From the NCBI RefSeq assembly GCF_011059105.1, contig NZ_JAALLS010000023.1:1-64000 (forward strand): DNA of 64,000 nt, in the 5' to 3' direction. The DNA comes from Fodinibius halophilus (lineage in GTDB: Bacteria; Bacteroidota; Rhodothermia; Balneolales; Balneolaceae). Below, piece after piece: positions 28,701-59,884 of the stretch (position 1 is its first letter; every line of letters begins with the position of its first letter). The position numbers and the translations under genes were made by a program. Under the pieces are notes generated by a model. The model was given only the letters and a program-made list of their open reading frames with translations. It was not told the DNA's origin and ran no database searches.

Positions 28701-31700
28701 AGATCCAGCTTCCCATCCCCGTCATAGTCGCCCCAATCTGAGGAACTAAAGTCCACGTCGGTCAGTCCCGCTCCTATATCAGTAAAGGTGCCATTCCCAT
28801 CATTGCGGTAAATCGCGGCCGTTGGGTTACCATTGACATCATCACCGGTCACTACCAGATCCAGATTCCCATCCCCGTCAAAGTCGCCCCACGCCGAGGA
28901 GCTACCATTCACACCCGTCAACCCCGCGCCAATAGTCTCAAATGAACTACTACCACCTCTTATCCCAATAAAACGTTCTGTTCCCACTACTATAGTATCA
29001 TTTGCAGCTACTGATAATTCAACCGGTCCATAAATACCATTGGGTACTTTTGTATAAAGCACTGATCTTTTTGCACTATCAACCGTCGCGGTGGCTTGTC
29101 CAAATTTTACAACATTTCCAACTGCCGTAGTGTTAAAACTAGATCCGTAGATACGAACGCTTGTACCTTCGGCACCACTCTTTGGCTCATGCGTTGTCAA
29201 TCGTAAAGAAGGTGTCGTTACTTGAGCTTCATTGGAGAAACCACTCACGTTGCCAGCCGTATCTACTGCTGTTATACGATAGTGGTAGGTAGTAGCTGCC
29301 GCAATTGTCGAATCGATATATGATGTATCTAGAACGTCAACAGTGTCGAGAGCTGTAAAATTTGATGGCCCGGCTGTAGAGTCAATTCCACTCGATTCCC
29401 GGTAAATATGATACGCGGACACATCCGAGGAGTCTGATGCTATCCAAGAGAGACTCACACCATCTCGAGTGGCACTACCTGCCAGGGCCGTTGGTACATC
29501 AGGCGGAACAATATCGCCATTTTCGTAAATTGTGGCCGAATTGTTACTATTCTCATCATCGCCGGTCACCACCAGATCTAGGTCCCCGTCTCCGTCGTAA
29601 TCGGCCCAGGCCGAAGAACTAGATGCCACCCCGGTCAACCCGGCCCCGAGTGCAGAAAACATGCCCCTACCATCGTTGCGGTAAATGGTGGCTATCTCGC
29701 CCCCACTGGCACTTCCGATTACCACCAAGTCCAGATCACCGTCTCCATCAAAGTCTCCCCAATCCGAAGAACTCCCATCTACACCAGTCAACCCGGCGCC
29801 AATGTCAGTAAAGGTGCCCCCTCCATCGTTACGATAGATTGTGCTCATCTGGGTACCACCATCGCCCTCTCCTGTAATTACTAGATCCAGATCACCGTCC
29901 CCGTCATAGTCGCCCCAATTCGAGGAACCAAAGTCCACACCAGTCAGTCCAGCGCCAATGTCAGTGAACGTGCCACTTCCGTCGTTGCGGTAGATGATGG
30001 CTGTTTTGTTCCCAGTGACATCTCGGCCGGTCACCACCAAGTCCAGGTCTCCGTCCCCATCATAGTCGCCCCAGTCCGAGGAACTAAGATCAACGCCTGT
30101 TAGACCCGCCCCAATATCAGTAAAAATCCCTCCTCCGTCGTTGCGATAAATGGTGGCAACTCTATTGTCATTATTATCCCGGCCGGTAATTAAAAGATCC
30201 AGATCACCGTCCCCGTCATAGTCGCCCCAGTCCGAGGAACCGAAGTCCACACCTATCAGTCCAGCGCCGATGGCAGCGAAAGTGCCGCCCCCGTCGTTGC
30301 GGTAGATGATAGCTGTTTTGTTCCCAGTGGAATTGGCATCTATTCCGGTTATCACTAAATCCAGGTCCCCATCTCCATCATAGTCACCCCAATCCGAGGA
30401 ACTTCTAAATACACCAGTTAGCCCAGTCCCTAGTGCGGTAAACGTGCCACTGCCATCGTTGCGGTAAATGGTGGCTGTTGGGTTAGAATTAGTATCACGG
30501 CCGGCAATTACCAGATCCTGGTCCCCATCCCCGTCATAGTCACCCCACGCCGAAGAACTAGATTCCACAGCAGTCAGTCCAGATTCAATAGCACCAAAGA
30601 GCTCCGACCCTCCCGTTACAGCTGTAAAGGTTTCCGATCCTGTAACAGTGCTCCCCTCCACTGAGACCGATATTTTCGTTAGTCCAGAAGCATTACTTGG
30701 AACCTTTGCATAAAGCACAGAACTCTTTGCGCTGTCTACGGTAGCAACTGATTCACCAAATTTCACCTCGTTATTAGTGGCTGTGAGACTAAAGCCCGAC
30801 CCGTATATACGTGTTATCGTCCCGGCTGCACCGCTTTTTGGCTCGATAGCAGTCACTCGTAATGTTGGAGTATTTATTTGAGCTTCATTGGAGAAACCGC
30901 TCACATTCCCAGCGGTATCTGTTGCTGCTATGCGGTAGTGGTAGGTATTGCCCGTTGTAATCGATGAGTCAGTATAGGAAGTAGCAGGGACAGAAACCGT
31001 ATCAAGTGCCGTATATGCGGCCGGCCCGGCAGTCGAATCAATGGCAGTCGTCTCCCGATAAATACGATAGGAAGACACATCGGAGGAATCCGAACCCGTC
31101 CAGGAGAGACTTACGCTGTCTCGGGTGGCACTACCTGCCAGGGCCGTCGGTACATCAGGCGGAACAATATCACCATTTTCATAGATTATAGCTAACTGGT
31201 TGGCATCAGTGTCTTTGCCGGTAATACTCAGATCAAGATCGCCATCTCCATCGTAATCCCCCCAACTGGAAGAACCATTGTTTACTCCGGTTAATCCGGC
31301 ATTAATATTGGTAAAAGTACTGCTGTCATTACGGTAAATAGCAGCTATTTGAGTGTTCCCGTCATGCCCCGTAACAACCAAGTCAAGATCGCCGTCCCCA
31401 TCAAAGTCACCCCAATTCGAGGAACCATCGATAACTCCATTTAGTCCCGCACCAATATTGGTAAAGGTCCCCCCTCCATCATTGCGGTAAATGGCACTAT
31501 TCTGAGTGCCACTGTTTCCCTCACCCGTAATTACCAGATCAAGATCACCATCTGCATCATAATCTCCCCAATCCAAAGAGCTTCGCCGAACTACTGTAAG
31601 ACCGGCCCCAATTGCTGTAAATACGCCATTCCCTTCGTTACGGTAGATCGCAGCTATTCGATTACTTCCATCATAGCCGGTAATTACAAGGTCTAAATCA

Positions 31701-39662: not shown

Positions 39663-40658
39663 ATGGAAGCCAATATATTTCCCATAACACAAGAAAACCT
39701 AGAAAAGGTAACTCAATTTAAGCTAGAGATTGGGGAACAGAAAAAGTATATCCAAAATGGATATCAAGTTGATGCAAAGATAAAGCTTCACCTTCCAGAT
39801 GAGACATTAGAATTCTTTGCAGAAATCAAGAAAGAGGTCCGAACCCACCAACTACCCAGAATTTATGAGTTGGCACAAAACAATAAGCCATTTCTGTTAA
39901 TTGGAGGACAAATTTTTCCCACTATAAAAGAGAAGCTTAAAGATAAAGGAATCAACTGGATTGATGGAGCTGGTAACATGTATATCAGAACCAAAGATCA
40001 CTTTCTTTTTGTGGACCACAATAAGACCTATCGTGTCAAAAAAGAAAAAGATCGAGCCTTTACTAAAACGGGTTTAAAAGTACTCTTCCTATTTCTTCGC
40101 GATGAAAAGTGGCTTCAAAAAACCTATAGAGAAATCGCCGAAGCTGCAGATGTTGCGTTGGGTACCATCGGTTATGTTATCAATGGACTTGAGAAGAGAA
40201 ATTATCTAGTTAAAAAGAACGAAAAGAATAATCAGCTAGTACGCAAAGATGAATTAATTGATGAATGGATCGGTGCCTATGAAACAGAGCTAAAACCTAA
40301 GCTACATAAAGGTACGTTTGCATTCATTGATAAAGAAGAGGCTGCTAATTGGAAAAAGATGGAACTTGATGACCAAACAGTCTGGGGTGGTGAGGCCGGT
40401 GCAGATTTACTAACCGGAATGCTAAGGCCACAGGATCTGACTCTTTATACCACCCATACCAAGGCTAATATAATGAAAAAATTTAGACTAAAGCCTGATC
40501 CTGATGGTACTGTCCAGGTCTATGAGCCATTCTGGAATACCAAAACAGAGAATGAAACTGCCCCGCCTTTGGCTATCTACGCAGACTTGATTTTGACGGG
40601 TGATGAACGCAATTTTAACATAGCTGAAAGAATATATGGCGAATTCATACAAGATTAA
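39663..40658 (+). CDS. abiEi: AbiEi-family antitoxin / transcriptional autoregulator
   Basis: A 331-residue cytoplasmic protein of the type IV toxin-antitoxin AbiEi family (AbiEi_2 type). The N-terminal part carries a beta-rich domain (FFAEIKKEVRTHQLPRIYEL, PFLLIGGQIFPTIKEKL), then a winged helix-turn-helix at about 150-190 (TYREIAEAADVALGTIGYVI, GLEKRNYLV) and the C-terminal antitoxin part (WGGEAGADLL, LTLYTT). The nested palindromes just upstream should be its binding site. The stop overlaps the toxin start by 23 bases, so translation is coupled. Known for the family: antitoxin and toxin proteins do not bind each other, and the pair gives abortive phage infection and element stabilisation. 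Confidence 0.88.
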   Translation: MEANIFPITQENLEKVTQFKLEIGEQKKYIQNGYQVDAKIKLHLPDETLEFFAEIKKEVRTHQLPRIYELAQNNKPFLLIGGQIFPTIKEKLKDKGINWIDGAGNMYIRTKDHFLFVDHNKTYRVKKEKDRAFTKTGLKVLFLFLRDEKWLQKTYREIAEAADVALGTIGYVINGLEKRNYLVKKNEKNNQLVRKDELIDEWIGAYETELKPKLHKGTFAFIDKEEAANWKKMELDDQTVWGGEAGADLLTGMLRPQDLTLYTTHTKANIMKKFRLKPDPDGTVQVYEPFWNTKTENETAPPLAIYADLILTGDERNFNIAERIYGEFIQD

Positions 40659-41475
40659 GTTGTCTAGCTTTAATCATCAAGGGCTAGAGGAAGTTATTCA
40701 AACACTCGAAACAGTTTTTCAAAAGTTTGATGTAGATTTTTATATCATTGGTGCGTTAGCAAAGGATATGTGGTTGGCTCAAGAGAAAATTCAATCCAGA
40801 GCTACAAAAGATGTTGATTTAGCAGTATTTATTTCGGAATCCGGGGATTATGATGAGATAAAATCTATCCTTATCAAAGAGCACGGTTTTGAAGAAGTAT
40901 CAACGAATGCCTTTGCCTTACTGACTCCCTATGGTTATCCCGTTGACCTGCTGCCATTTGGATCCGTGGAAATTGATGAAGCAGTAGAAGTGGAGGGAGA
41001 CGGACTTACAAAGGTTCACGTTAATGGCTTTAAGGAGATATACCAAGAAGGTCTGGCACCAATCTTAACTGATGAAGGCCTTACTTTTAAAATTGCTTCT
41101 CTTGCTTCAATTGTATTACTGAAACTGATTGCCTTTGATGACCGCCCGGAGAAACGTACTCATGACATCAAAGATGTTGGTATTATTATTCACCACTATT
41201 TTCACATTGAGGACAAGCTAATTTACGACAAACACAATGATCTATTTGATAACGAAAATTTAGAGTTGGAGGATATCGCTGCCCACGTAATAGGACGAGA
41301 GTTAAAACCTTTGCTGGTTTCAAATAAATCGTTGCAAGATCGCACATTGAATATTCTTTCTTTATCAAAAAAATATCATCAGAGAATTCCTGAGTTGATA
41401 GCACAAGGGGGATCATTTACTACCGACAAAATAAAGGAGTTGTTTAATAGAATTGCACAAGGCATAGAGCAGTAA
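40636..41475 (+). CDS. abiEii: AbiEii-family nucleotidyltransferase toxin
   Basis: A 279-residue cytoplasmic toxin of the AbiEii/AbiGii nucleotidyltransferase family. The active-site signature is present: G39 in IIGALAKDM and the metal-binding D59/D61 in TKDVDLAV, then PVDLLPFG at about 100-107 as the third carboxylate strand. Relatives inactivate tRNA by adding nucleotides to its 3' end. The ATG lies inside the end of abiEi (23-base overlap). A second copy of the operator follows 15 bases after the stop. The key residues look intact, so the toxin is probably active. Confidence 0.88.
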   Translation: MANSYKIKLSSFNHQGLEEVIQTLETVFQKFDVDFYIIGALAKDMWLAQEKIQSRATKDVDLAVFISESGDYDEIKSILIKEHGFEEVSTNAFALLTPYGYPVDLLPFGSVEIDEAVEVEGDGLTKVHVNGFKEIYQEGLAPILTDEGLTFKIASLASIVLLKLIAFDDRPEKRTHDIKDVGIIIHHYFHIEDKLIYDKHNDLFDNENLELEDIAAHVIGRELKPLLVSNKSLQDRTLNILSLSKKYHQRIPELIAQGGSFTTDKIKELFNRIAQGIEQ

Positions 41476-41490
41476 GTACTATTGCCCTTT

Positions 41491-41543
41491 TGTTCACTAA
41501 TTTTACATGTTCACGAAACGTGAACGTAAGGAAATAATGAACA
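41491..41543. promoter_or_regulatory. AbiE operator copy 2, downstream of the toxin
   Basis: TGTTCA (41491-41496), GTTCACG-AAA-CGTGAAC (41509-41525) and TGAACA (41538-41543) have exactly the same spacing as copy 1, and 43 of 53 positions are identical. No plus-strand gene starts behind it; the next gene is convergent. Confidence 0.7.
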
Positions 41544-41648
41544 ATATTAGGCAGTAACTCACTACCTAATACAAACGAAAAAGCGAACATGCACTCTTTG
41601 GTTATATACGACCTGTTTCTTGTTACAACTCTAAGTCTATCACTAGTA

Positions 41649-42752
41649 TTAAGCTAACTTGGGGATAAGATCATTTAACTTTTCGGCTACCTCCTCAGGC
41701 TTTTCCCCATAATCAAAATATTCAATTATTATACTTCCCGACCTATTGTCTTTATGCCCTTCCCGATTTGCAATGTCACTTCCCAACCTACTTTCAATAA
41801 ATTGGCGAAATATTTTTTCATCTGTTGACTTCCGATCCCAAATCTCCATCCGATATTCTTTAGGTGTAAGGCGTAATTTAATCTGTATTTTATATTCACT
41901 TCCCTCCCAGTTAACCACTCTTTGAAAAGACCTGACATACTTAAGTTTACCTTTTTCGGTGTATGTTGAAGAGCTAAAACCGGTACCTTCTAAGGTTACT
42001 AATTCTTCCACTTCATCAGCCTTGGCCTCAATTTCTTTTTTAAATTTCTTGAATGCATTGTTATAAAGGGATTCAACCTCCTCCCTATTTTCACTCAGAA
42101 AATTTATAAACTCCATTGTTAGCTGTGTTCTTTTATTCATATTCCGAATGGTCTTGATTAAGTCTCTAAGATATATACCAACTTTAGCATCAGCTTTGGG
42201 TATAACCTCATCTAACCTGCCTTCCAACTGATCGAAAAAAGCATCATAGGTTATAAATTTGAATTCATTCTCTTCCCAATCCTCAGGCTTTTCCTTTTGC
42301 CCCAGTGATAACACAATAAACGTATACTGGTGATCTGGATATTCTCTCTTAATATAGTCTTGATAATCCTGTAGATCATTGTGATACAGATGATGATAGA
42401 TTTTATTTTCGATTGCTATACATCGATTCTCAGTTTCTATGACCAGGTCAATCCGATTATTCTTTTTAGTGGTCACTTCCCTTTCAACGTTCAATACCGA
42501 AGAATCAGATGGCATGCTAGAGCTTTCCTCCCCATCTACTGTATCCAACAGTGATTCAACAAATATCGAAGAGAAGCCGTGATCATAGTCAGATTTTAAA
42601 AAGAATTGAAGAACGTTACTGATTACATCCTCATAGTGAGGATACCCGGATATTTCAAAAATGGTGGGCATATATTTCGGGATAGGATCCAGATCCTTAA
42701 ACTTCGATAATAACTCTTTTACTTTTGTAAGTTCATCTTCTGTTATTCTCAT
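41649..42752 (-). CDS. PD-(D/E)XK nuclease family protein
   Basis: A 367-residue cytoplasmic protein with a PDDEXK_4-type nuclease core: E41 in the first helix (HYEDVISNVLQFFL), D102 in NRIDLVIE and E115-x-K117 in CIAIENKIYH. The catalytic residues are therefore intact. A helical middle and a C-terminal beta domain with no known motif follow. It is read towards the AbiE pair. The 33 bases before its ATG are preceded by the orphan tail of another protein (42786-42962). Proteins of this family are common in defence islands, but the target is unknown. Confidence 0.78.
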   Translation of the reverse strand: MRITEDELTKVKELLSKFKDLDPIPKYMPTIFEISGYPHYEDVISNVLQFFLKSDYDHGFSSIFVESLLDTVDGEESSSMPSDSSVLNVEREVTTKKNNRIDLVIETENRCIAIENKIYHHLYHNDLQDYQDYIKREYPDHQYTFIVLSLGQKEKPEDWEENEFKFITYDAFFDQLEGRLDEVIPKADAKVGIYLRDLIKTIRNMNKRTQLTMEFINFLSENREEVESLYNNAFKKFKKEIEAKADEVEELVTLEGTGFSSSTYTEKGKLKYVRSFQRVVNWEGSEYKIQIKLRLTPKEYRMEIWDRKSTDEKIFRQFIESRLGSDIANREGHKDNRSGSIIIEYFDYGEKPEEVAEKLNDLIPKLA

Positions 42753-44213: not shown

Positions 44214-45167
44214 ATGTCTAAAAGAGCTTACCTGCGATACCAAGTCATTGATGAATGTTTAACGAGGCGATCGATGAAATATCCATCTCCCAAGAAACTA
44301 ATGGAGGTAATTGAAAGGGTTCTTGATCAGAGAATAGCAAAAGAAACGCTGCTAAAGGATATCCGAGCGATGAAGAAATCAGCTGATCTTGGCTTTGATG
44401 CTCCTATCAAGTATTCACGCTCACATAGAGGGTATTACTATGATGATCCCAATTATACCATCAAGAAGTTCCCGGTAGAATATGAAGAGATTGAATCAGC
44501 TCAATTTGCCCTGACCTTGTTAAATCAAAGCGGGGCTCTGCCTTATCTCAACAGGTTCAAAAATTTTATAGAACGAGCAGTTACATTTGCCCAGGTCGAA
44601 AACCAACTAAAGGGAGATTTATCAGAATATATTAAGTTTGAAGAGCCCGTTGAGGTAGAAGGACTTACATGGATCCAGCCGCTGGTAAATGCCATTGAAC
44701 TTAAGAAAGTAATAGTAATTACCTACCGATCTATTAGCGGCCAAAGCACCAAAACTCGGAGACTGCATCCGTATCTACTTAAAGAGTACGATGACCGGTG
44801 GTACGTCTATGGTTTTGATGAGGAGACCGAAGAGGAACGTATCTTTGGGCTAGACCGCATCCAGGATCTTGAAACTGACAAAGGCGGCGAGTATCGTTAT
44901 TTCTCCGGGGACAGGGAGGAAATCTTTAAACACACCTTAGGAGTAAGCCGATTTGTGGGAGATCCCCAAGAGATTATACTTCAGTTTTTCTATCCTCAAT
45001 CTGAATACATCCTGACTAAACCTATCCATGATTCCCAAGAGGTAATTGACCAAGATGATGAGTCAATCACCATAAAGTTATATCTGCGGATTAATTATGA
45101 GCTACGAGCGCTTATCAGAAGCTATGGAGACCAGGTGGAGGTCCTGAAACCAACCCCTCTTAAATAA
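44214..45167 (+). CDS. WYL-domain transcriptional regulator
   Basis: A 317-residue cytoplasmic regulator. An N-terminal winged helix (about 1-75; ETLLKDIRAMK recognition region) is followed by the WYL domain (about 150-225; LKKVIVITYRS, TRRLHPYLLKEYDDRWYVYG) and a WCX-type C-terminal domain (about 245-317). WYL regulators bind nucleic-acid-type ligands through basic pockets and often control defence systems. It is divergent from the minus-strand nuclease genes, with about 200 bases between, and could regulate those or the other defence genes of the island (inference). Confidence 0.85.
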   Translation: MSKRAYLRYQVIDECLTRRSMKYPSPKKLMEVIERVLDQRIAKETLLKDIRAMKKSADLGFDAPIKYSRSHRGYYYDDPNYTIKKFPVEYEEIESAQFALTLLNQSGALPYLNRFKNFIERAVTFAQVENQLKGDLSEYIKFEEPVEVEGLTWIQPLVNAIELKKVIVITYRSISGQSTKTRRLHPYLLKEYDDRWYVYGFDEETEEERIFGLDRIQDLETDKGGEYRYFSGDREEIFKHTLGVSRFVGDPQEIILQFFYPQSEYILTKPIHDSQEVIDQDDESITIKLYLRINYELRALIRSYGDQVEVLKPTPLK

Positions 45168-48544: not shown

Positions 48545-51500
48545 TTAATCTCGGTACTTAATAAAAATCTGTGTAGGTGTATTTCTCCCGATAATTTTTG
48601 GATTAGCTTTCAGAACTTGATCGACTTCTTTCTTTAGTCCACTTTCGCCAGTATTTACATGGGTGAAATCAAATTGTGCCTCCTGAGGATTATTAGAATA
48701 TCTTGGGTTCTCTACTTTCCAATATCCCACCCCTTGATCCAACCTCACAAATAAAACTGAATCATCTTTAAATATAATCTCTATTATACGACCATGTTTT
48801 ATCTGTTTTCGACGTAAAACATTCAATGAAATATTGAAACCATCCTTATCAAACACATTTTTTAAAACATAATCTCGATATTTAGATTCTTCCCAATCAT
48901 GGAATATCAAATTCCCATAATTGTTGTACCCCTTATTCTTTTTCGTGGTATTTATGGTAAGTGGAATTTGATCCCATGTATCCACCTTTGATTGAATTTC
49001 TTTTAGTCCACTAAATAAAGACCTAACCATTGCAATACTAAGGGGGTTGTGCAAATACCTATCACTGTAACTAACTTCACTTATATTTTTTCCTCCAACA
49101 CTAAAAAGGGATTTAGTTTTGCTATGATTATTAGTGATTATTTCCCAAAACTTATTGCCAAAATCTTTAAGAGTCCCATCTAAATCATTCTTTAACTCTA
49201 ATTCTAAATCAGATTTTCCCTTAAGCTTTTGTCTCAGCCCTTTTCTTTCCTTTAACTCATAATTCAGACTCCAATCTTTTAAATTTCCACTTATCAGTGG
49301 ATTTTTATCTCTTTCTGAACTACTCCATGATTTATTTGCTTTAAAAGCACTTTTATCTTGAGTTACCCAAGCTAAAATATCACTTGAGAATTTTATAGCA
49401 GCAATTATGGGAACATTATTTTGTTTCGGTAATTTATTAATTCCAATAACTTCCAGGTAATCCCTATCCATCATTCCCAATAAAGATAACAGGTCTTCAT
49501 CTCCTAAATCCTCAAATAAATTTTGAGGGAATGCAACTTTTACTTCAATTGGTTTTTCAGAAAGGTGAATCGCCATATTACGTAAAGGAGAGACCGCAAT
49601 ATCACAATCTTCGCTATCTCCATCGGCAAACAAATAAACTGTACCAGAGGGATTATTATTGACCTCCCGAATTAATGCTTTCTCTATATCTTCATGTTCT
49701 ATATTTGAAATTTCGTCGAAATAGTCTAATTCTTTCGGCAACTGATGCTTATTTAGCCATTCTTCATTAAGCAATGAAAGAGCTTCAAACCTATCTAACT
49801 CATCAAATCTAAATCTTTGGTCATAATCCAAAACACACTTTGGACAACTTGAACTGCAATTGTTAGAACAGTTCAATTTCTCATAAGCTTTCTGAAAAAT
49901 ATTGCTAATAATATGATCAATGTTAGAAGAGAAACCACTTGCATTTCTATCATAAACCAAGATCGAATAAGTTGACCTTATACCATCGATAGAAGCTTCT
50001 TTCACATCACAAATTAACTCCATTGATTGAACTCCTAATAAATCAGCAATACTATCTCGAAATACTACCGCTAAAGTAGCCGCTTTGTTTCTATCTTTTA
50101 ACCAGTTCCCCTCACTATCCTTTAATTGTATCTCAAGTATATCAGTAGACTGTTGATGTCCAAGTGAGATATTTTCTTTTATTGCCCATTCATTTGCACT
50201 ACCTGGACACACTCTGTCACCCTTTTTCCCTCTAAGTTTGTTGTGTTGCTTACCAGATTCAAACTTCTTAGGCAAGTTCCCTTCGTTATCTAAAGGTTCA
50301 GCTCTTCCACACATCATACAAATCGCATAACCTGTACCATTTTCTCCCTTTGAATGATGAAAAATCTGTCCTTCAGAAGTTGAACGATAACGACCTAAAC
50401 TTGGATTAATCAGTGGTGACCATTCACCTCCTACTTCCACCCATGGCCTTTCAACTGGAATAAATTTTCTCGATGTAACATCATTCTTTCGAGATTCATA
50501 AAAATCTACACTAAACCCAGAGGGTTCAAGATACTCTTCAATATTAGAAGGTCTTATTTGCTCACCACAGTGATCACATAATAGTGCACCTTTTCGATTA
50601 AACGTGGAACCACTTGCACCACAACTGTGACATCTCCAAGCATATTTTATTGCCTGTGACTCTTTAACTTCAGATACGTTACTTGGTATATGCCAATTGA
50701 GTGTGATACCAGCTGATTTATAAACCACTCCATCAACAACTATATCCGCCCCAGGTGCATATTCTCTAAGTGCTGACACAATATCTCTTGATGGCAATTC
50801 CCTATTTTGCAGAGTATTGTCATCCCGTGTTTTACTTTTCTTATTTTTTTCCTGCTTAAATGCCGCAATATTATAGTGGTCGAAAACTGTGATATTTGAA
50901 GGAAAACCATAACCAGGAAGGAAACCTTTAGAAGCAAGTTCTCGCAATAGATATTCATCAGTTAGTCTTCGTAACTGGTGGTCAATAGCTTTAACAGCTG
51001 GTTGATCTTTCCCCCCATTTTCTAGGATATCTTCCCTTTGCTTTGTTATAGTTTCATATTCATTTCTCCATTTGACAGCTATTTGATCAATGTTATTTGC
51101 AGAATTTTTAATTAGGAAAATTGGATCCGTCTCATCAAACACACTACCTCTAACTAAAATCTTAATTTCCCTAAATACATTTTTATCTTCCTCCAGCTGT
51201 TGGTTTTCACACCAATTTATGAACTTTCTGTAGGTTGATTCCTCATTAGTAAAGAACCAACCAGATGTCAATTTATATTTATCTACATCCTTTAACCCTT
51301 GTACATTATTCAAAAAGTGGGAAAGTAGATAAGCATTAACATGTCTTTGGACAATAACTTGACTATTCAGCGATACAGTAGGAGCAGGTAATTGTGTATC
51401 AAAGGCCCAGGAACTGTTTTCAAATGCCGCTAAGTCATGCGGATTAGGCTTACAAAGCGTTACAGTAGTTGATCTTAACTCATTTCTACGTCCGGCTCTT

Positions 51501-54500
51501 CCAGCTCGCTGTAAATAATTAGCTGGATGAGGAGGAACATTATTCATAGCCACTATTCTAATTCCTCCAATATCAATCCCCATTTCCATTGTTGTTGAAC
51601 AGGACAAAATATTGATTTTACCTTCCTTAAATCCTTTTTCATATTTTTTTAAGAGGTAAGAATCCTGTTGAGCTGAATGTTCGGCAGTAGAATAATAGGG
51701 CATCATCTCAATTACCCTATCATTAAAAATTGACCACAAACCTCTCTCTCTTAGCTTGTTTATAGTTTCTTGATCATTTAACCATTTTTGTGCTATATCT
51801 CGATTTTTAAATGGATTTTGTGTATTTCCGAAAGGCTTGTCATATCGTGGCAACTCTACTTCTTCACACTTGATATCCCCTTCAAAATATTTGGGGAGAT
51901 ATGGTGTAACCTTTCCAATAGTTTTATCTAAAAATCTTCGAGTTATAGGACAAATCCATGCTTTGGTAGGTATCGTAAATGAAATGTTGTCCAGTGGTAA
52001 TACAAATCCGTTATCCCGGTTTTCCAAAGTGCTAGTATCAATCAAGTCTTTCCATCCTCGATACAAGAGGTCATCAACAATATCTTCACCTTTAGGACTC
52101 TCTACGTCTACCCCTAACAGATAAATTAATAAACGGACAATCCTGCTACGAGCCTTACCCCTTCTAGTGTTTGGCCAACGACGTTGATATTTCCCTACAT
52201 CTTCTTCATCTGGACCCAAAAGATGAGACCTATAAAAAGGTAGTCCTAACCAGTTATCTAATATTTTAGTACTACCTAAACTTCCTCCTGCTCTAACAAA
52301 ATAATCAACACATAATTTCAAGTATGTTTTCCACTCTTCTAAAGAATATCCATTTCCAAGCCATTTATCAGGAGCTTCTCGGATTTCATTTATCTTTGGA
52401 TACTCAAGGCCTATTAAACCTAGCGTTTCGAGGTTATTTTGTCTTCGTGGTCTTCTTGCAAACTCTCTAACAACCAGTAACTCTGAAACTAATGAGCCAG
52501 CCTTTGAACTGCTGAAAATATGGGGGTCATGACGTTTGTAATTATTACATATATATGAAAAATCCCCATTTTCATTGGCAAGTAACTTTTTTAAGGTACT
52601 ATACTCTACAGGATTAAACCCTTTAAGTTTTTTTAGCTCCTTTTTCTCATCCTCGATTATGTCATCTAAATCTCCATTATTAGCTTCCGTTAGCCTATTT
52701 ATTTTATTTTTCAGTTTTTTAACTTTTGCTTTATTCTTTTTACCCCCTTCTTGTAGTACATAATGATAGATCAGACCTCTTGCTTTAGTGATTTCAGCAT
52801 TCTGCTGTAACTTCGCAGCTATTCTAGCTGTACCCTGTCTACTATCATTAAAAGTTAATAATCTTCGACCATTAAATGGGTTTTCAGGTGATTCATTTTT
52901 CTCTTCTGCATAATTAAGAAGCGTCGGAAGCAATACATTTAAAAGAGAAGGAGCACCTATCCGATGAGCCCTAAATCTATTATGCCTTTTATAACTACCA
53001 TCCAAACAACTTGGACAGGGTAATCCATTTTCTTCTCCCTCATACTCTCTAATAGATAATCTTAAACCATCAGTTCCCTCTTCGACTATTCTTGTATTCT
53101 TATTTAAGTATACAGTACCAGTCCCCTCCAAATCCCTATTGGTTATAATTGCTGTATTTCCATGTCGGTTAATACTTTCATTTTCTTCTGGATTAATAGC
53201 TTCAGGATCATCTTCGAGTTCAAGTTCAAATTCATCATATCCTTCATCTTTAGCTGGTTGAATAATTTTAGCTGAAAGTTCTCCACCAGTGTTGACTTCC
53301 TTAACCTCGATGTTCAAATAAACTTCTCCACATTCAGTACACGAAACAACTTCATAAACAGGTGCCCCACAATCACACTCAGTTCTATTGTCTAAATACA
53401 CCATCCCAAAAGGCCATTCATTTCCTTCTAACGATGTTCCTTGAACTTGAGAGCAACATTGATCAGCACATGCCCATAGTCCAGCAACCGTTTTTTGAAA
53501 AATATGTGCTCTTAATGGCAAAAAGGATTCTTCATTTGATTCAGCTCTAGAAAGTAAATCCAACCATTCTAGTGCTTTCTGTTGTTGTTCTGAAGAATAA
53601 TTTTCAGACTGCTCATAAATAACACTACATATATCGCTGAGTTTAGCAATTGCATCTGAATTTCTGACAAACAAACCCCGAATCTTTCTAGCTGTCGAAT
53701 GTTTTGTCAATCTTTTATAAAGTTCTTCAGGATTTTCAATTGTTTTCAAACTTTCTAATGAGCTTTCACCCAACTGAAAATTTTGCAACTGTGGTATTTC
53801 CCTTTTCCCTTCTACAACATGAACCTTTGATTCATCGACACCAGCAATTTGAGTTAAAAAGCTTTTTAACTGTGAACGAGCCTCTTCACCTTCTTCACCA
53901 ATAGTTGCTGAAGTTGCAATAAATCGAACCTCACTTGGTTTCTTACCAAAAGCTTGAAGAACTCTACGAATTAACAAGGTCATCTCTGCCGCTTGTGAAC
54001 CAATGTATGTATGGGCTTCATCCAATACTATAGTATCTAACAGTCCGTTTGACTGTTCCAATATTGGATTATCCTTTGCACGCACTAACATATACTCAAG
54101 CATCGTAGGATTCGTGACAAGGATGGGCGGAGGCGAATTTCGTAAAGATTTCCTATCAATGACTTCATTTGGATACCTATGTCTTCTTGATGCTTTAACC
54201 TTTTCTTCTGTTAAACCATTATACAGGCAAAATCGAATGTCACCACCAAACGGTTCTGTCCATGTTCTTAACCTTTCTCTTTGGCTATTAATCAGTGCAT
54301 TTAGTGGGTATAAGAAAAGGGACCTGACTCCTACTAATGGTTTTTGCCTTCTCGCTCTTTCGTCAAGCAAACGATTAAGTATGGGCACCATAAAACATTC
54401 AGTCTTACCCGAACCGGTGCCACTTGAGATAATTACTGATTGCGGATCCTCTTTATCTAAGATATTCCAAGCTCTCTCTTGATGTGTATAAGGATAATAT

Positions 54501-54775
54501 TCCTTTTTCAACTCTCCTCGATCTAACGCCTTAACTAATTCCTTTCGCAGTAAATCTCCCCCTAGTTCCTTAATCTTCTTGGATCCGGGCTCCCAGCCAA
54601 ACACCGCCTCAAAAGTTGGGTCACCTATAAAACAGCCCTCTTTTCCTAAAGGCCTATTGAAATAGGATTCCAAATAAGTTCTCAAAGCCTTATTGGAAAA
54701 TCCGAAAGAACTTAGTGCACTTGTACTTGCTCTATCAGCAAGCGTTGGTATCATATCACTGTAATAATTATCCAT
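48545..54775 (-). CDS. druE: Giant DEAD/DEAH helicase with DUF1998 (DruE-like, Druantia)
   Basis: A 2076-residue cytoplasmic superfamily-2 helicase. The Q-motif region (YYPYTHQERAW) is followed by Walker A (SSGTGSGKT, K124), DEAH at 252-255 (VLDEAHTYIGSQ), the FIATSAT motif III, and a helicase C-terminal domain near 1055-1130 (CSTTMEMGIDIG, QRAGRAGR). Several zinc-type cysteine pairs are seen (CTEC, CPSC, CHSC, CDHC). DUF1998 lies around 1600-1670 with CSNNCSSSCPKCVLDYD. Large DUF1998 helicases next to a STY4851/ECs_5259-type partner are the DruE/DruH pair of Druantia type III phage defence. It starts 5 bp after druH. The motifs look intact. Its last 400 residues are unassigned. Confidence 0.82.
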   Translation of the reverse strand: MDNYYSDMIPTLADRASTSALSSFGFSNKALRTYLESYFNRPLGKEGCFIGDPTFEAVFGWEPGSKKIKELGGDLLRKELVKALDRGELKKEYYPYTHQERAWNILDKEDPQSVIISSGTGSGKTECFMVPILNRLLDERARRQKPLVGVRSLFLYPLNALINSQRERLRTWTEPFGGDIRFCLYNGLTEEKVKASRRHRYPNEVIDRKSLRNSPPPILVTNPTMLEYMLVRAKDNPILEQSNGLLDTIVLDEAHTYIGSQAAEMTLLIRRVLQAFGKKPSEVRFIATSATIGEEGEEARSQLKSFLTQIAGVDESKVHVVEGKREIPQLQNFQLGESSLESLKTIENPEELYKRLTKHSTARKIRGLFVRNSDAIAKLSDICSVIYEQSENYSSEQQQKALEWLDLLSRAESNEESFLPLRAHIFQKTVAGLWACADQCCSQVQGTSLEGNEWPFGMVYLDNRTECDCGAPVYEVVSCTECGEVYLNIEVKEVNTGGELSAKIIQPAKDEGYDEFELELEDDPEAINPEENESINRHGNTAIITNRDLEGTGTVYLNKNTRIVEEGTDGLRLSIREYEGEENGLPCPSCLDGSYKRHNRFRAHRIGAPSLLNVLLPTLLNYAEEKNESPENPFNGRRLLTFNDSRQGTARIAAKLQQNAEITKARGLIYHYVLQEGGKKNKAKVKKLKNKINRLTEANNGDLDDIIEDEKKELKKLKGFNPVEYSTLKKLLANENGDFSYICNNYKRHDPHIFSSSKAGSLVSELLVVREFARRPRRQNNLETLGLIGLEYPKINEIREAPDKWLGNGYSLEEWKTYLKLCVDYFVRAGGSLGSTKILDNWLGLPFYRSHLLGPDEEDVGKYQRRWPNTRRGKARSRIVRLLIYLLGVDVESPKGEDIVDDLLYRGWKDLIDTSTLENRDNGFVLPLDNISFTIPTKAWICPITRRFLDKTIGKVTPYLPKYFEGDIKCEEVELPRYDKPFGNTQNPFKNRDIAQKWLNDQETINKLRERGLWSIFNDRVIEMMPYYSTAEHSAQQDSYLLKKYEKGFKEGKINILSCSTTMEMGIDIGGIRIVAMNNVPPHPANYLQRAGRAGRRNELRSTTVTLCKPNPHDLAAFENSSWAFDTQLPAPTVSLNSQVIVQRHVNAYLLSHFLNNVQGLKDVDKYKLTSGWFFTNEESTYRKFINWCENQQLEEDKNVFREIKILVRGSVFDETDPIFLIKNSANNIDQIAVKWRNEYETITKQREDILENGGKDQPAVKAIDHQLRRLTDEYLLRELASKGFLPGYGFPSNITVFDHYNIAAFKQEKNKKSKTRDDNTLQNRELPSRDIVSALREYAPGADIVVDGVVYKSAGITLNWHIPSNVSEVKESQAIKYAWRCHSCGASGSTFNRKGALLCDHCGEQIRPSNIEEYLEPSGFSVDFYESRKNDVTSRKFIPVERPWVEVGGEWSPLINPSLGRYRSTSEGQIFHHSKGENGTGYAICMMCGRAEPLDNEGNLPKKFESGKQHNKLRGKKGDRVCPGSANEWAIKENISLGHQQSTDILEIQLKDSEGNWLKDRNKAATLAVVFRDSIADLLGVQSMELICDVKEASIDGIRSTYSILVYDRNASGFSSNIDHIISNIFQKAYEKLNCSNNCSSSCPKCVLDYDQRFRFDELDRFEALSLLNEEWLNKHQLPKELDYFDEISNIEHEDIEKALIREVNNNPSGTVYLFADGDSEDCDIAVSPLRNMAIHLSEKPIEVKVAFPQNLFEDLGDEDLLSLLGMMDRDYLEVIGINKLPKQNNVPIIAAIKFSSDILAWVTQDKSAFKANKSWSSSERDKNPLISGNLKDWSLNYELKERKGLRQKLKGKSDLELELKNDLDGTLKDFGNKFWEIITNNHSKTKSLFSVGGKNISEVSYSDRYLHNPLSIAMVRSLFSGLKEIQSKVDTWDQIPLTINTTKKNKGYNNYGNLIFHDWEESKYRDYVLKNVFDKDGFNISLNVLRRKQIKHGRIIEIIFKDDSVLFVRLDQGVGYWKVENPRYSNNPQEAQFDFTHVNTGESGLKKEVDQVLKANPKIIGRNTPTQIFIKYRD

Positions 54776-54780
54776 AAAAT

Positions 54781-57700
54781 CTATACCTCAATTTTATCTC
54801 TGCAAAACAATTTTGCGAGTGAAAACTTATAAGCATTTATATACCAATTCGAGTCAAATTCTTTCACTTTTCTCAACATTGAAACAAAATTTGGGTCCTC
54901 GAATTGTTTTATTCTAATATCCTTTGCTGCTGCGTGAGCCAGAAGAATTGGAGTATTATATACTACAGTTCTAAACTCCTCATCCAAATTATATAAAAAA
55001 GGTTCTTCCTGGCTGAACTTTTCGATCAACCTATAAATTGTGTCAAAAGAAAGCCATTCGCTTTTATTTTTATCAGAATTTCTATTGCGTAAATTTTGAT
55101 AAGCTGATTCTGGTCCTTCTAAAAAGGAAAAATTTATTATCTCTTCATTTATTCTCTCTAAATCAGGACTCAAATAATCAAAACCAAAAAATGCACTAAA
55201 ACTAAGTGGTAATTCCAGTATATCTCTAGACCAGTTGGTCACTTTTAATTTCGAATTTAATATTTCATTTAACTCACTTGGGGAAAATTGATCCTGATAA
55301 TCACTTACTGATAATAAACTGGCCTTTGCCCAACTAGCTATTGGGATAAATTCAAACAAGAAAGGTAATTCTAAAGCAAACCGATCTAGAAAATCATCAG
55401 GACATGAGATAATGCCAGTTGATAACATTGCCATAGCATCATAATTATGTGCCAATCGTTTCCACATGTCTAATGAAGAAAGTGGCAAATGTCCAAACTC
55501 ATTAACTAGCTGTGCAACTACTGTCCAGTCTTCATGTGATGGATTCTGTACTAGCTTTTCAATTACCCCATCTAACTCATTTATACGTTCCTCTTTATCA
55601 GATATTTGTAAAGCACTTCGCAAACCACCTAGTTGATCAACATTTCCATCAATAAATTTAATTACTGGTTTAAACATATAATCAGCAGAAGTACTTGGAT
55701 AAACAATCCAAGGACCAGGGCTCTTTAGTTGTGGCGGTAACTTAAGATGGCCAGACTCTTGATATTGGAGCTCAAGATGATCAATACCTGGTATGTCAAG
55801 CCTTTGCGCTCTAGCTGATAGCGAACTAGCTTGTCCAGTTAAATCCTGTTTTATATGATCATTTTGAATGAAAAATTTATCATCAGTTCCATTCTCTAAG
55901 ACAAAAGAATACCTCGAAACTCTCAATTGAGCATATCTTCTACCATCAAGTAATACCTCAAAACTGATATATGCCTCTGCCTCTTCAGTAATTGAAAGCA
56001 TTTCTTCAAATACTTCACGATAATCAATTAGACGAAGCTGTTTAGAGGTCTCATTTTTTTGAAGACCTAAATTAAATAGCTTACTCACATTGTTGGCATC
56101 TTCTGATACTAAATCAATTAGTAATTGAATATCTGTTGCATCAGCTGGGAGTATATTTGCCCTTAAACCATGTAAGTTATTTACAGATACCAAAGTATTC
56201 GATACTAACTTCTCACCATTACTATTATATATCTGAACCCCTTTACCGGGAAAGTCTAGACATATTCTGGCATTTGTTGAATTGCCTTTCCAAGCAATCT
56301 CTGCATTAAAGGATTCAGGAGGAATACCCTTCCCAGTGTAATTAACAAACCACTTGTTAGTACCAACTTTTTCAACTTCCAAAAGAGGATTATTGACCTT
56401 GATTAAATCAACTTTCCAATTTTTCAATATCCAATAACCACAATCAGGTTTATTCGATGGCTCTAAGTATTCTTTAGAATCTTTTGGTAGAATAACAAGC
56501 TTCTTTTTCCAATCAGTGTAAATCCCTTCCATCACTTTTAAAGTTGTTGGACCAATTATTCCTTTAAGAGATTCTGTATAGTTTTTTTTACCCCGCTTCC
56601 AACTTACACCTTTCCTTACACTAGTTATATCACCATATGAACTCTTTTTCTGAAGTCTTGGCCCTCCCCTGAAAGCAATTTGAGGCTTTTCAAAAACATT
56701 TAAGATCTCTTCTCCATGTAACACATACCTAGCATCTTTCCCAGCCTTTTGTGTCCTAATAATAAATTGATCCTGCCCACTATCTACTACCACATTGCCA
56801 ACACAAACATAGATTTCTCTATTATCTAAATACCCCCACAATCGCTTGCTAACCTTACTTGCTTCTACTGACCATTCTTTAGGCATAACAAGCATAAACT
56901 TCTCTGCCGAAATATTTACACTACCCTGTTTATTAAATAACCCTACATTTGTATTTGATTCTGAGAAATCGAATATCCATGGTAATCCCTCGTCTAGTTC
57001 CTCACCTTGACCAATAGGTTGTATCCATTTATTTCCTAATAAATCTCTGAGCTCCAATCGTAATTCAGATGAAACATCAGAACCAGCAATATCTATAGTT
57101 TGCTTCTCTGATCTATATGAACTCCCCCCTAAAGTTCTTCTTAAATAGATATTCTGAAAACTCTCACCTGCACTAATTCCAAGAACAAGTTTTTGAGGAA
57201 GGTCCTTATCTATCTCTAATTCAAATTTGTTTTTAATATCTTGACCATCAATAAATTCATCAATAGTCAATTCAACTCTTAAAGTAACTCTCTTGTCTTC
57301 ATCTCGAAGAATTTTTCGTTGTATATCAACGAACGATGTCGATTTTTTAATGGTAGTTTTAGCAACTTTTTCAACTAAACTCTCAAGTATATTAAACGTT
57401 TTTTGTTCACTTACAGAAATTGGAAATTGCGAAGACCAATAATCAGAATTATTCCGCCATTCTTTTACTACATCTTCTGGTACGGTTGAATTAGCCTCAC
57501 TCTTAATTCTTGAAATTGTTTGGATTACTTCAGCAAGTAAAAAATAGATTTCTTCCTTTCTGTAAGTTTTAGGTAAATAGCTACTCAAATCTGATATCCA
57601 CGAAATAATCAAATCTTTTGTAGGCTCCTTATCACCTGACAAATCAATTGTTCTTTGTAAGACATAAGCAATTGAGCCATGGTTATTACCTAAAAGATTC

Positions 57701-58116
57701 ATTGGTAGTCCGCCTTGTAAGGCAACACTACCAAGAAATCTTAACCCATGTGTATTTTTAAGATCTATTCGCCAATACCTAAATCCTCTTTCCACACAGT
57801 GACTTCTTTTAGGTGCACTCCATTCATCCGAGTTCAGATTAAGATCATCTAAAATAGGCTGCCAAGACCATCTACCTCCAGAAAATCGGCGCTTCCACCA
57901 TTCGGCTGCATATAAAACAAATAGGTTATTAAAAATTCTCTTTTTATCTACAATTTCCGATAAGGAATTAAATTCTAACTTCTTCTGTAGCCATTTTATG
58001 AGCTCTTTTTCTAACTCTTCGAACTCCTCTCTTGACATTTTATATGTGTAAAGATTTTTTCCTGTAGGCCTATCATAATCACGCTTATGTAAAAAATCTC
58101 TTATCCAATTAAACAT
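54781..58116 (-). CDS. druH: STY4851/ECs_5259-type protein (DruH-like, Druantia III)
   Basis: A 1111-residue cytoplasmic protein without an enzyme motif that I can see. The N-terminal third shows the family's recurrent Y-A-A-E-W-W-K-R-R...GG.WSW segment (about 70-85), and WKRLAHNYDAMAMLS lies in the C-terminal half; the middle is beta-rich. This matches the large protein found beside the DUF1998 helicase in Druantia type III loci and near the enterobacterial hsd/mcr region (recognised from memory, not searched). It is the first gene of the operon, 5 bp before druE, and is divergent from two unknown genes with a 333-base spacer. Codon use and composition are AT-rich like druE, consistent with transfer as a unit. 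Confidence 0.72.
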   Translation of the reverse strand: MFNWIRDFLHKRDYDRPTGKNLYTYKMSREEFEELEKELIKWLQKKLEFNSLSEIVDKKRIFNNLFVLYAAEWWKRRFSGGRWSWQPILDDLNLNSDEWSAPKRSHCVERGFRYWRIDLKNTHGLRFLGSVALQGGLPMNLLGNNHGSIAYVLQRTIDLSGDKEPTKDLIISWISDLSSYLPKTYRKEEIYFLLAEVIQTISRIKSEANSTVPEDVVKEWRNNSDYWSSQFPISVSEQKTFNILESLVEKVAKTTIKKSTSFVDIQRKILRDEDKRVTLRVELTIDEFIDGQDIKNKFELEIDKDLPQKLVLGISAGESFQNIYLRRTLGGSSYRSEKQTIDIAGSDVSSELRLELRDLLGNKWIQPIGQGEELDEGLPWIFDFSESNTNVGLFNKQGSVNISAEKFMLVMPKEWSVEASKVSKRLWGYLDNREIYVCVGNVVVDSGQDQFIIRTQKAGKDARYVLHGEEILNVFEKPQIAFRGGPRLQKKSSYGDITSVRKGVSWKRGKKNYTESLKGIIGPTTLKVMEGIYTDWKKKLVILPKDSKEYLEPSNKPDCGYWILKNWKVDLIKVNNPLLEVEKVGTNKWFVNYTGKGIPPESFNAEIAWKGNSTNARICLDFPGKGVQIYNSNGEKLVSNTLVSVNNLHGLRANILPADATDIQLLIDLVSEDANNVSKLFNLGLQKNETSKQLRLIDYREVFEEMLSITEEAEAYISFEVLLDGRRYAQLRVSRYSFVLENGTDDKFFIQNDHIKQDLTGQASSLSARAQRLDIPGIDHLELQYQESGHLKLPPQLKSPGPWIVYPSTSADYMFKPVIKFIDGNVDQLGGLRSALQISDKEERINELDGVIEKLVQNPSHEDWTVVAQLVNEFGHLPLSSLDMWKRLAHNYDAMAMLSTGIISCPDDFLDRFALELPFLFEFIPIASWAKASLLSVSDYQDQFSPSELNEILNSKLKVTNWSRDILELPLSFSAFFGFDYLSPDLERINEEIINFSFLEGPESAYQNLRNRNSDKNKSEWLSFDTIYRLIEKFSQEEPFLYNLDEEFRTVVYNTPILLAHAAAKDIRIKQFEDPNFVSMLRKVKEFDSNWYINAYKFSLAKLFCRDKIEV

Positions 58117-58449
58117 AATCTCTTTATCTGAATAGATTTTTATTGCATTTAAAAGCCAACAACATTCATAATGTGCAAATATATTGCCAATACCCCTCTT
58201 CTAAGTTAACAAGACGGCCAAAATTAAATAATTAACAAAATATAGTATATAGGGTAATCATTTCTGGATTACAAGCAACTGATAGGCCAATATACCTATC
58301 AAATATTGATGGGTGATAATTACTTTTGATACCAGCCCCTCCGTCTATACTGTTAGTATAAAGAGGTACAATTCTTGAATCTATTCTCAATGTACAATCT
58401 GAATATCAAAGAGTGTTCTTCAATAAATTTCAATTAATAGATAATTATT
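58117..58449. other. Divergent promoter region between druH and the small gene
   Basis: This 333-base, strongly AT-rich stretch must hold promoters in both directions. A short inverted repeat (58280-58301) is listed separately. No further ORF or RNA was seen. Confidence 0.5.
58280..58301. promoter_or_regulatory. Candidate operator between divergent defence genes
   Basis: The arms TGATAGG (58280-58286) and CCTATCA (58295-58301) flank an 8-base centre. The repeat lies about mid-way between the two start codons, a normal place for a shared repressor site. The binding protein is unknown. Confidence 0.35.
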
Positions 58450-58794
58450 ATGGGTAAGAGTTCTAGTTTCAAAGAAAGTGGTTTACCAGATAGAGCTTAT
58501 CCTAATGAATTTGAACAAGAAAATTCATCGGGAGAAAGCGATGCAAATCAAAAGTCAGAGTTGACTATAAACCTCGTCCAAATAAATAGCCAAATTGCTT
58601 CAAGGGCTAGCAAGGGTGATCAAATTTCATTGAGCGATATAGTTAAAACAATAGAGGCACACACTGCTAGTGGAAGAATTGGTAATATACCGATTCATGA
58701 TACAGAAGAAGTAAGAAACATCAACTATACACAAGCTTTTATCTCTGGTTTAGAAAAAGACAATTATCAGGTGGAAATTACATTGAGGGAGTAA
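58450..58794 (+). CDS. Small acidic protein of unknown function
   Basis: A 114-residue protein that I do not recognise. The first 35 residues are polar and look disordered (SFKESGLPDRAYPNEFEQEN, rich in Ser/Glu). The remainder is predicted from the pattern to be helical with a conserved-looking core (LTINLVQINSQIASRASKGD, IVKTIEAHT) and a beta-strand end (YQVEITLRE). It is read divergently from druH and its stop (TAA) lies one base before the next ATG, so the two plus-strand genes are translationally coupled. It may be a small partner or regulator of the Cys-rich protein. Confidence 0.6.
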   Translation: MGKSSSFKESGLPDRAYPNEFEQENSSGESDANQKSELTINLVQINSQIASRASKGDQISLSDIVKTIEAHTASGRIGNIPIHDTEEVRNINYTQAFISGLEKDNYQVEITLRE

Positions 58795-58795
58795 A

Positions 58796-59884
58796 ATGTC
58801 TTTTAAAAAATCTCTACAGGGTAATTTGTGGCAAGCTAATTGTCATGAATGTTCTTTATGGAATATTTGTGGTGGTTCTCCATCTGCACCATGTGAATGT
58901 ATACACACCGGTAAGGACAAATACAATTGCAAAGAGTGTCATATTATATGTAGAGAAAGACAAGTACCTCCCACAAATCTAGCTTCGGAAGATACATTTC
59001 ACAATCAAATTGCAGCTGGCATACCATTACATAAACTACGAATAGAACAGCCTGCTGATAAACCTCAATTCCCAACCTACATTCCATTACATACAAGTGA
59101 GTTGCAGGATCCTATTAATTCTACCTTTGTGGGAATATCTATTGATAAAATACTGACTGCTCCTAAAACTAAATTCCCAAGTATTAGAAAATATGTCAAC
59201 AATCTTACAGAAGTAGAAAATCACTTTAACACTAACAACAAAAGTAAATATGTAGCTATTTTAAATGGGAAAGATAATTATTTGGAAGCTCTTTGGAGAA
59301 TGCCAGACCGTAATAAACTTTATAAAAAGTTCAAAGAATTGGGTATTCAATATATAACTGGTCCCACTTTTTCTATCATAAAAGAACCTAAAGTACCTGC
59401 CTCACATAATGTAAGTATGATATTAAGACATAATCGAATAGTTAAAGAGTTATACGATTATGATCTAGTACCAATACCAAATATTTACTGGCGTTCTGTT
59501 TTTAATATTGAGCAATGGGAAAAATGGTTAGTTCTAAATCACCAAGTCAATCACATAGCCTTTGACTTTTCACTGCAATCAAAAGGTGTCAATATTGAAA
59601 AAATCATAGAGACAAGTCTAACATTATTGGATGGTCTTAAAAGAAACTTTCACATATTTTTCACCGGTATTGGGACAAAAAATGGGCTTTTTATTAAAGA
59701 CAAATTACGAAATTCAAACCATTCCTTTTCAATAGTAACGGGAGAGCCAATAATGAAAGGAATTAGGGGAGGAAAAAAGCTCTCTGTAAATGAGCCTATT
59801 AGATATGTTACCAAGCCGGAATATCCAAAAGAAGTATTAGCAAACTACAATCTGGCTTTATTCGAAGAATTGATTGAAAATTAA
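58796..59884 (+). CDS. Cys-rich protein, possibly DUF4417-like
   Basis: A 362-residue cytoplasmic protein with eight cysteines in the first 52 residues (C16, C19, C25, C33, C35, C45, C48, C52; C-x2-C-x5-C-x7-C-x-C-x9-C-x2-C-x3-C), which suggests zinc or iron-sulfur binding. The remainder resembles the TIM-barrel-like DUF4417 pattern: a LWRMPDR segment near 162-168, ITGPTFS, an RHNRIVKELYDYDLVPIPNI helix/strand and WRSVF. This assignment is tentative. It is the second gene of a plus-strand pair divergent from druHE and converges on hsdR. Known Druantia III loci are described with only two genes, so it may be an accessory or a separate system. Confidence 0.6.
   Translation: MSFKKSLQGNLWQANCHECSLWNICGGSPSAPCECIHTGKDKYNCKECHIICRERQVPPTNLASEDTFHNQIAAGIPLHKLRIEQPADKPQFPTYIPLHTSELQDPINSTFVGISIDKILTAPKTKFPSIRKYVNNLTEVENHFNTNNKSKYVAILNGKDNYLEALWRMPDRNKLYKKFKELGIQYITGPTFSIIKEPKVPASHNVSMILRHNRIVKELYDYDLVPIPNIYWRSVFNIEQWEKWLVLNHQVNHIAFDFSLQSKGVNIEKIIETSLTLLDGLKRNFHIFFTGIGTKNGLFIKDKLRNSNHSFSIVTGEPIMKGIRGGKKLSVNEPIRYVTKPEYPKEVLANYNLALFEELIEN

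Follow-up and report, generated by a model that had tools for sequence, protein, structure and literature searches.

The stretch of DNA analyzed here (termed the window) comprises 64,000 nt of Fodinibius halophilus, namely positions 1-64,000 of contig NZ_JAALLS010000023.1. It harbors the two genes of a Druantia type III defense system and, diverging from these across an AT-rich spacer, two further genes on the opposite strand (Table 1).

Table 1. Features of the Druantia type III locus and of the divergent gene pair, in window coordinates.
Feature	Position	Strand	Description
druE	48545-54775	-	2076 aa; YprA-family DEAH helicase with MrfA-type Zn-binding (DUF1998/MZB) domain; Druantia III helicase-nuclease
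druH	54781-58116	-	1111 aa; YjiT (STY4851/ECs_5259) family; Druantia III sensor/nuclease
divergent spacer	58117-58449		333 bp, AT-rich, 29% GC
inverted repeat TGATAGG-N8-CCTATCA	58280-58301		possible operator (unproven)
small protein gene	58450-58794	+	114 aa; first gene of the cassette core
DUF4417-like gene	58796-59884	+	362 aa; 8-Cys N-terminal cluster and predicted beta/alpha (TIM-barrel-like) domain

An earlier note on this DNA had listed these four open reading frames, all of which are present exactly at the positions and with the lengths that it gave, and measurement likewise returns its 5-bp interval between druH and druE, its 333-base spacer and its inverted repeat, which is exact and occurs as a single exact copy in the window. 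The two plus-strand genes are coupled, as it had proposed, because the stop codon of the first and the ATG of the second lie 1 nt apart; the 114-residue protein, there called acidic, is mildly so (18 D/E versus 11 K/R); and the 362-residue protein, there called Cys-rich, has 8 Cys, all of them inside residues 16-52.

The assignment of druE and druH to Druantia type III is correct, inasmuch as both proteins match PADLOC and PDB entries along the greater part of their sequences. DruE matches the PADLOC model DruE3 (PDLC00037) with 2240.6 bits over residues 2-2049, the Pfam domains DEAD, Helicase_C and MZB and, in a sequence search, the solved DruE (PDB 9tu7) with 1165 bits; the alignment to this structure extends to residue 2021 of 2076, and DruE may have an active C-terminal PLD nuclease domain. 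DruH matches the PADLOC model DruH3 (PDLC00049) with 342.8 bits over residues 3-1103, the solved DruH (PDB 9tud) with 127.7 bits in a sequence search and NCBIfam NF038336 with 594.6 bits against a cut-off of 150, the last of which bears out its STY4851/ECs_5259 label. In published descriptions, type III Druantia consists of two proteins (PMC13192584), and such a two-component DruH-DruE system has also been reported from Mycolicibacterium (PMC13316683). DruE, a helicase, is loaded onto 3' single-stranded DNA and bears PLD nuclease domains, DruH probably serves as a sensor with nuclease activity, and Druantia III neighborhoods are typically rich in type I and type IV restriction-modification (RM) genes (PMC13192584); in the window a type I hsdR gene is next in line. 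Because this two-protein make-up and RM-rich setting fit published Druantia III, and with both genes present in the order druH-druE and near full-length PADLOC matches, the window's druEH is, judged by its sequence, a complete and ordinary system: a member from the Bacteroidota lineage that is distant in sequence from the solved DruH but identical in composition. Druantia III itself is thus left unchanged by these findings, apart from gaining one further two-gene member.

The divergent pair, on the other hand, is very probably independent of Druantia. A genome of the same genus (G081) contains a homologous WYL-druE-druH block in which divergent type I RM genes stand where the pair would be, and the DNA homology between the window and this locus ends at 58127--that is, 11 bp past the druH start and before the pair. 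The pair is also absent from the druH locus of Marinobacter pMAQU02. Of the 245 genomes of the class, 5 have druH and 2 are found with the profile of the 362-aa protein; the window's genome is the only one with both. Conversely, none of the pair's relatives among the loci read lies beside druHE; they adjoin other systems. In other words, the pair is found mostly without druHE, and the other druH loci examined, including that of G081, are without the pair--the two outcomes that the earlier note had named as speaking against its proposal. Its suggestion of a regulatory or effector addition to Druantia is disfavored by these absences and by relatives that lack druHE, and its other suggestion, a separate unit using the same spacer, is the option favored by the data.

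Neither protein of the pair matches Pfam, NCBIfam, PHROGs or PADLOC; for the 362-aa protein, no Pfam family is reached at E<=1, so that it falls below the gathering threshold of PF14386 (DUF4417). Relatives of this protein were found on a Salinibacter ruber plasmid (31% identity, 3e-50, tblastn), in a genome of the same class (G325; 33% identity, 2.7e-47) and, more distantly, on Rhizobium, Sinorhizobium, Planctomyces and Streptomyces plasmids (about 20% identity, 1e-5 to 1e-7), where most are annotated as DUF4417; the tblastn values for the Sinorhizobium protein (so annotated) and the Streptomyces protein are 1e-7 and 3e-7. Identity to relatives spans 17-34% overall, and 7 Cys are invariant, together with other residues, across the nine DUF4417-like proteins aligned. 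Each of the nine loci aligned has a small gene immediately upstream of the DUF4417-like one, with either an overlap or a gap of no more than ~13 nt between the two, and the small proteins, of ~115 aa, begin with MG in 9/9 sequences (eight others and the window's), their homology resting mostly on position, length and this MG start. Searched alone against plasmids, the 114-aa protein returned nothing at E<=1. Most relatives were found on plasmids, plasmids being the collection searched. A profile (A4) had no match in 391 genomes of another class of the phylum, and the subfamily is absent from 50,697 phage records; exact-short-peptide scans, whose silence carries little weight because an exact match is required, yielded no relative in genome contigs, and in viral contigs five of seven yielded none and the other two found the same contig, which carries the full cassette described below together with Kiwa. 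One match to the 362-aa protein (6e-4, in genome G180) was judged spurious, lying inside an 812-aa sugar-nucleotide transferase-like open reading frame.

The family with which these proteins invite comparison is DUF4417 (PF14386), as represented on actinobacterial plasmids: similarity to the window protein is detectable (tblastn 1e-7 to 5e-3) and the motifs P-[NTD]-[FY]-S and PR/P are common to both. However, two of three actinobacterial relatives pass the Pfam model that the window protein misses, and the actinobacterial DUF4417 genes inspected either stand alone or have ParB-like genes nearby, and no small partner is annotated directly upstream of them. In phages, the DUF4417 family occurs fused to ParB (PMC12704722). 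A profile of the core found no convincing match among solved structures, and folding the 362-aa protein alone gave an unusable model (pLDDT 39.8). A two-sequence model of the relative on an IMG/VR contig reached a mean pLDDT of 45.6 (about 64 for residues 134-326) and shows a beta/alpha order that repeats. In structure comparisons this low-confidence model is matched best by TIM-barrel proteins, among them epimerases, xylanases and tRNA-guanine transglycosylases (TGTs). The TGT chains (Z 10-11.7, rmsd 4.4-5.1, 213-259 residues aligned) are tied with the epimerases and xylanases. The model thus weakly suggests a TIM barrel and supports no particular activity.

In Rhizobium, Sinorhizobium, Aminobacter, Planctomyces and the IMG/VR contig, the two genes form part of a larger cassette, which adds a gene for a STAS-like/winged-helix protein and one for a GHKL ATPase. 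The STAS-like protein, of ~190 aa, matches Pfam DUF4325 above threshold in two cases and more weakly or not at all in the others; it has a conserved TAWNNRL segment near its C-terminus and a winged-helix-like C-terminal part. The GHKL ATPase matches Pfam HATPase_c_2 and conserves the E/N, DxGxG and GxG positions; at the R. etli and S. alkalisoli loci its gene lies antisense, and the copy in Sinorhizobium is intact (299 aa). Searches with the STAS-like and the DUF4417-like proteins returned the identical 8 plasmid records. Between the R. etli and S. alkalisoli loci the DNA is 72% identical over a single 3.07-kb block, which consists of exactly these four genes and has unrelated flanks, and Aminobacter and the IMG/VR contig likewise share such a block with different flanks; judging from these alignments, the four-gene cassette travels as one block in all four of the loci that are comparable. 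In Salinibacter and G325 the pair instead diverges from XRE-ImmA/IrrE (XRE-M78) and PIN genes. The window holds the cassette core only (i.e., the small and the DUF4417-like genes), relatives of the STAS-like and GHKL proteins being detected neither near the pair nor elsewhere in the window's genome.

Partner-switching regulators that combine a STAS-domain protein with a GHKL ATPase are of the RsbV/RsbW type. The full cassette resembles these, and DUF4325 proteins, in having a STAS-like protein and a GHKL ATPase, but differs in the fusion of its STAS-like part to a winged-helix-like end, in the absence of a sigma factor and in having two extra proteins; in the window, moreover, the STAS-like and GHKL genes are absent. 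WYL/CARF defense regulators offer a second comparison, since these too are regulator-like genes that accompany different defense systems. The proteins of the divergent pair, however, are unrelated to them and have no known ligand-binding or DNA-binding domain. A gene of the WYL kind does flank druHE: it lies at window positions 44214-45167, has a counterpart in G081 (locus L024, 2890-3882) and is conserved with druEH, and a WYL gene is also found near the druH of pMAQU02. The WYL protein may be the actual regulator of this Druantia lineage.

What changes from locus to locus is the company that the cassette keeps. Of the two copies that share the 3.07-kb block, one lies beside AbiE-like genes and Gabija (PADLOC), and the other beside protease/DprA genes and Kiwa (PADLOC); the Aminobacter and IMG/VR copies have, according to PADLOC, Hma as neighbor in one case and Kiwa in the other; in Rhizobium CB3090 the cassette adjoins Mokosh (PADLOC); in R. 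phaseoli, a NACHT gene (Pfam); and in the window the pair adjoins Druantia III. The defense neighbor thus differs nearly every time across the loci (~10 loci, counted as raw adjacency), so that it is the partner systems that change while the cassette stays. On the pair's context, the earlier note had the right idea in allowing for a separate unit; what it had no means of seeing is that this unit forms the core of a cassette that recurs next to many different defense systems.

The reading preferred here, to which a probability of roughly 0.55 is given, is that a separate mobile cassette core lies beside an ordinary druEH, and that this core is the effector, with swappable regulators at other loci. 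The core would be the working part, because it alone is kept across all lineages while the regulators vary or vanish: a STAS-like/winged-helix protein and a GHKL ATPase in one branch, XRE-ImmA/IrrE and PIN proteins in the Salinibacter branch, and neither in the window. On this account, the DUF4417-like protein would be an enzyme or effector in which a metal-binding Cys cluster accompanies a predicted TIM-barrel scaffold, with the small protein of the coupled gene serving as its partner or restraint. Upon infection, expression or activity would be released by the STAS/GHKL pair, working as a partner switch, and control of the window's pair would have to be of another kind, possibly exerted from the shared spacer. 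The cassette is probably defense-related; that the pair itself constitutes an anti-phage effector unit is a proposition with about even odds. A bolder formulation, offered tentatively, is that the cassette represents an undescribed anti-phage system or interchangeable immune switch--a Cys-rich enzyme with a TIM barrel, which possibly has nucleobases or nucleotides as substrates, and its small partner, both under STAS/GHKL or XRE-ImmA control--and that it docks beside and acts with Druantia, Gabija, Kiwa, Mokosh, Hma or NACHT systems.

The same gene map is predicted by a standalone unit and by a regulator of neighboring systems, so that adjacency within defense islands cannot separate the two. 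The most serious alternative is accordingly that the cassette is a general sensor/regulator, swapped among defense systems to control its neighbor, and that its reduced core in the window tunes druHE from the spacer. A STAS-like protein with a winged-helix-like C-terminal part, together with a GHKL ATPase, does make up a partner-switch set; the direct neighbors of the cassette include Gabija, Kiwa (at two loci), Mokosh, Hma and a NACHT gene; on an E. coli plasmid, a multiubiquitin-ThiF operon is headed by a related STAS-like/winged-helix regulator; and the window's spacer contains a palindrome. This alternative is nonetheless rather unlikely, given that the window's pair has no recognizable DNA-binding or GHKL part and its genome no detected STAS-like or GHKL relative, that the GHKL gene of the R. 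etli and S. alkalisoli copies is reversed and separates the other cassette genes from the defense genes, and that the druHE of G081 does without the pair. As for the palindrome, terminator-like sites in the spacer are few (2, versus 0.9 in shuffles) and its RNA fold is not stronger than that of shuffled sequences (z -0.81); therefore the repeat may be an operator or may be due to chance. A structured RNA in the spacer was rejected for want of support, given this z-score and an Rfam search of the spacer that returned no match.

Less probable still is a reading of the pair as a maintenance, toxin-antitoxin-like or counter-defense set of mobile elements, with no anti-phage role. The plasmid location of most relatives (again, plasmids being the collection searched), the divergent XRE-ImmA/IrrE and PIN genes that flank two of them and the ParB-fused DUF4417 proteins of phages (PMC12704722) point in this direction; the repeated direct adjacency to complete defense systems and the zero count of the subfamily in phage records argue against it. 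Finally, a dedicated accessory of this Druantia III lineage, yielding a four-gene variant, might be read from the divergent layout, the common spacer and the similarly low GC content of druEH and the pair (33-36%), but is largely refuted and was rejected, since the pair is missing at the nearest druHE locus (G081) and at the other druH loci examined, every relative of the pair is without druHE and published Druantia III functions with two genes (PMC13192584, PMC13316683).

Druantia III as encountered here is of a known kind, and the cassette appears to be undescribed, as open-licence papers on DUF4417, DUF4325 and STAS/GHKL proteins in defense yielded no description of it. If the cassette is real as a unit, then it offers a way into the question of a control or helper module that is exchanged between distinct anti-phage systems: at least five dissimilar systems have this one cassette family as a neighbor, and close copies of the cassette with different partners constitute a natural swap experiment. 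It also gives a first genomic context to the DUF4417-related family and to the STAS-like DUF4325 proteins, both of which have no known function.

Related regulators occur in other settings as well. On contig C1 of G325 (locus L036, 9128-10603, minus strand), a second STAS-like/winged-helix gene is accompanied by a STAS-GHKL fusion, which adjoins JAB-like, methyltransferase, SNF2 and YprA-type helicase genes and lies ~19 kb from the small/DUF4417 pair. On an E. coli IncHI2 plasmid (locus L038, 7920-11396) the STAS-like/winged-helix regulator is directly upstream of a multiubiquitin-ThiF-DUF6527 operon, and its relatives are found in 34 plasmid records, mostly enterobacterial.

Elsewhere in the window, an AbiEi/AbiEii-like gene pair, assigned by eye without a PADLOC match, is followed by a protein matching the PADLOC candidate PDC-S26 (264 bits), the whole spanning 39663-42752, and positions 25754-34585 encode a 2943-aa protein with FG-GAP-like DGDGDLDLV repeats and a C-terminal sorting-type domain. 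Past the window, at 64305-74261 of the contig, the island carries on with a TIR-like gene, type I RM genes hsdS and hsdM and a CARF-RtcR gene, along with excisionase-like HTH genes and an integrase. This island looks like an integrated mobile element, because the island of G081 has a similar backbone with different RM cargo.
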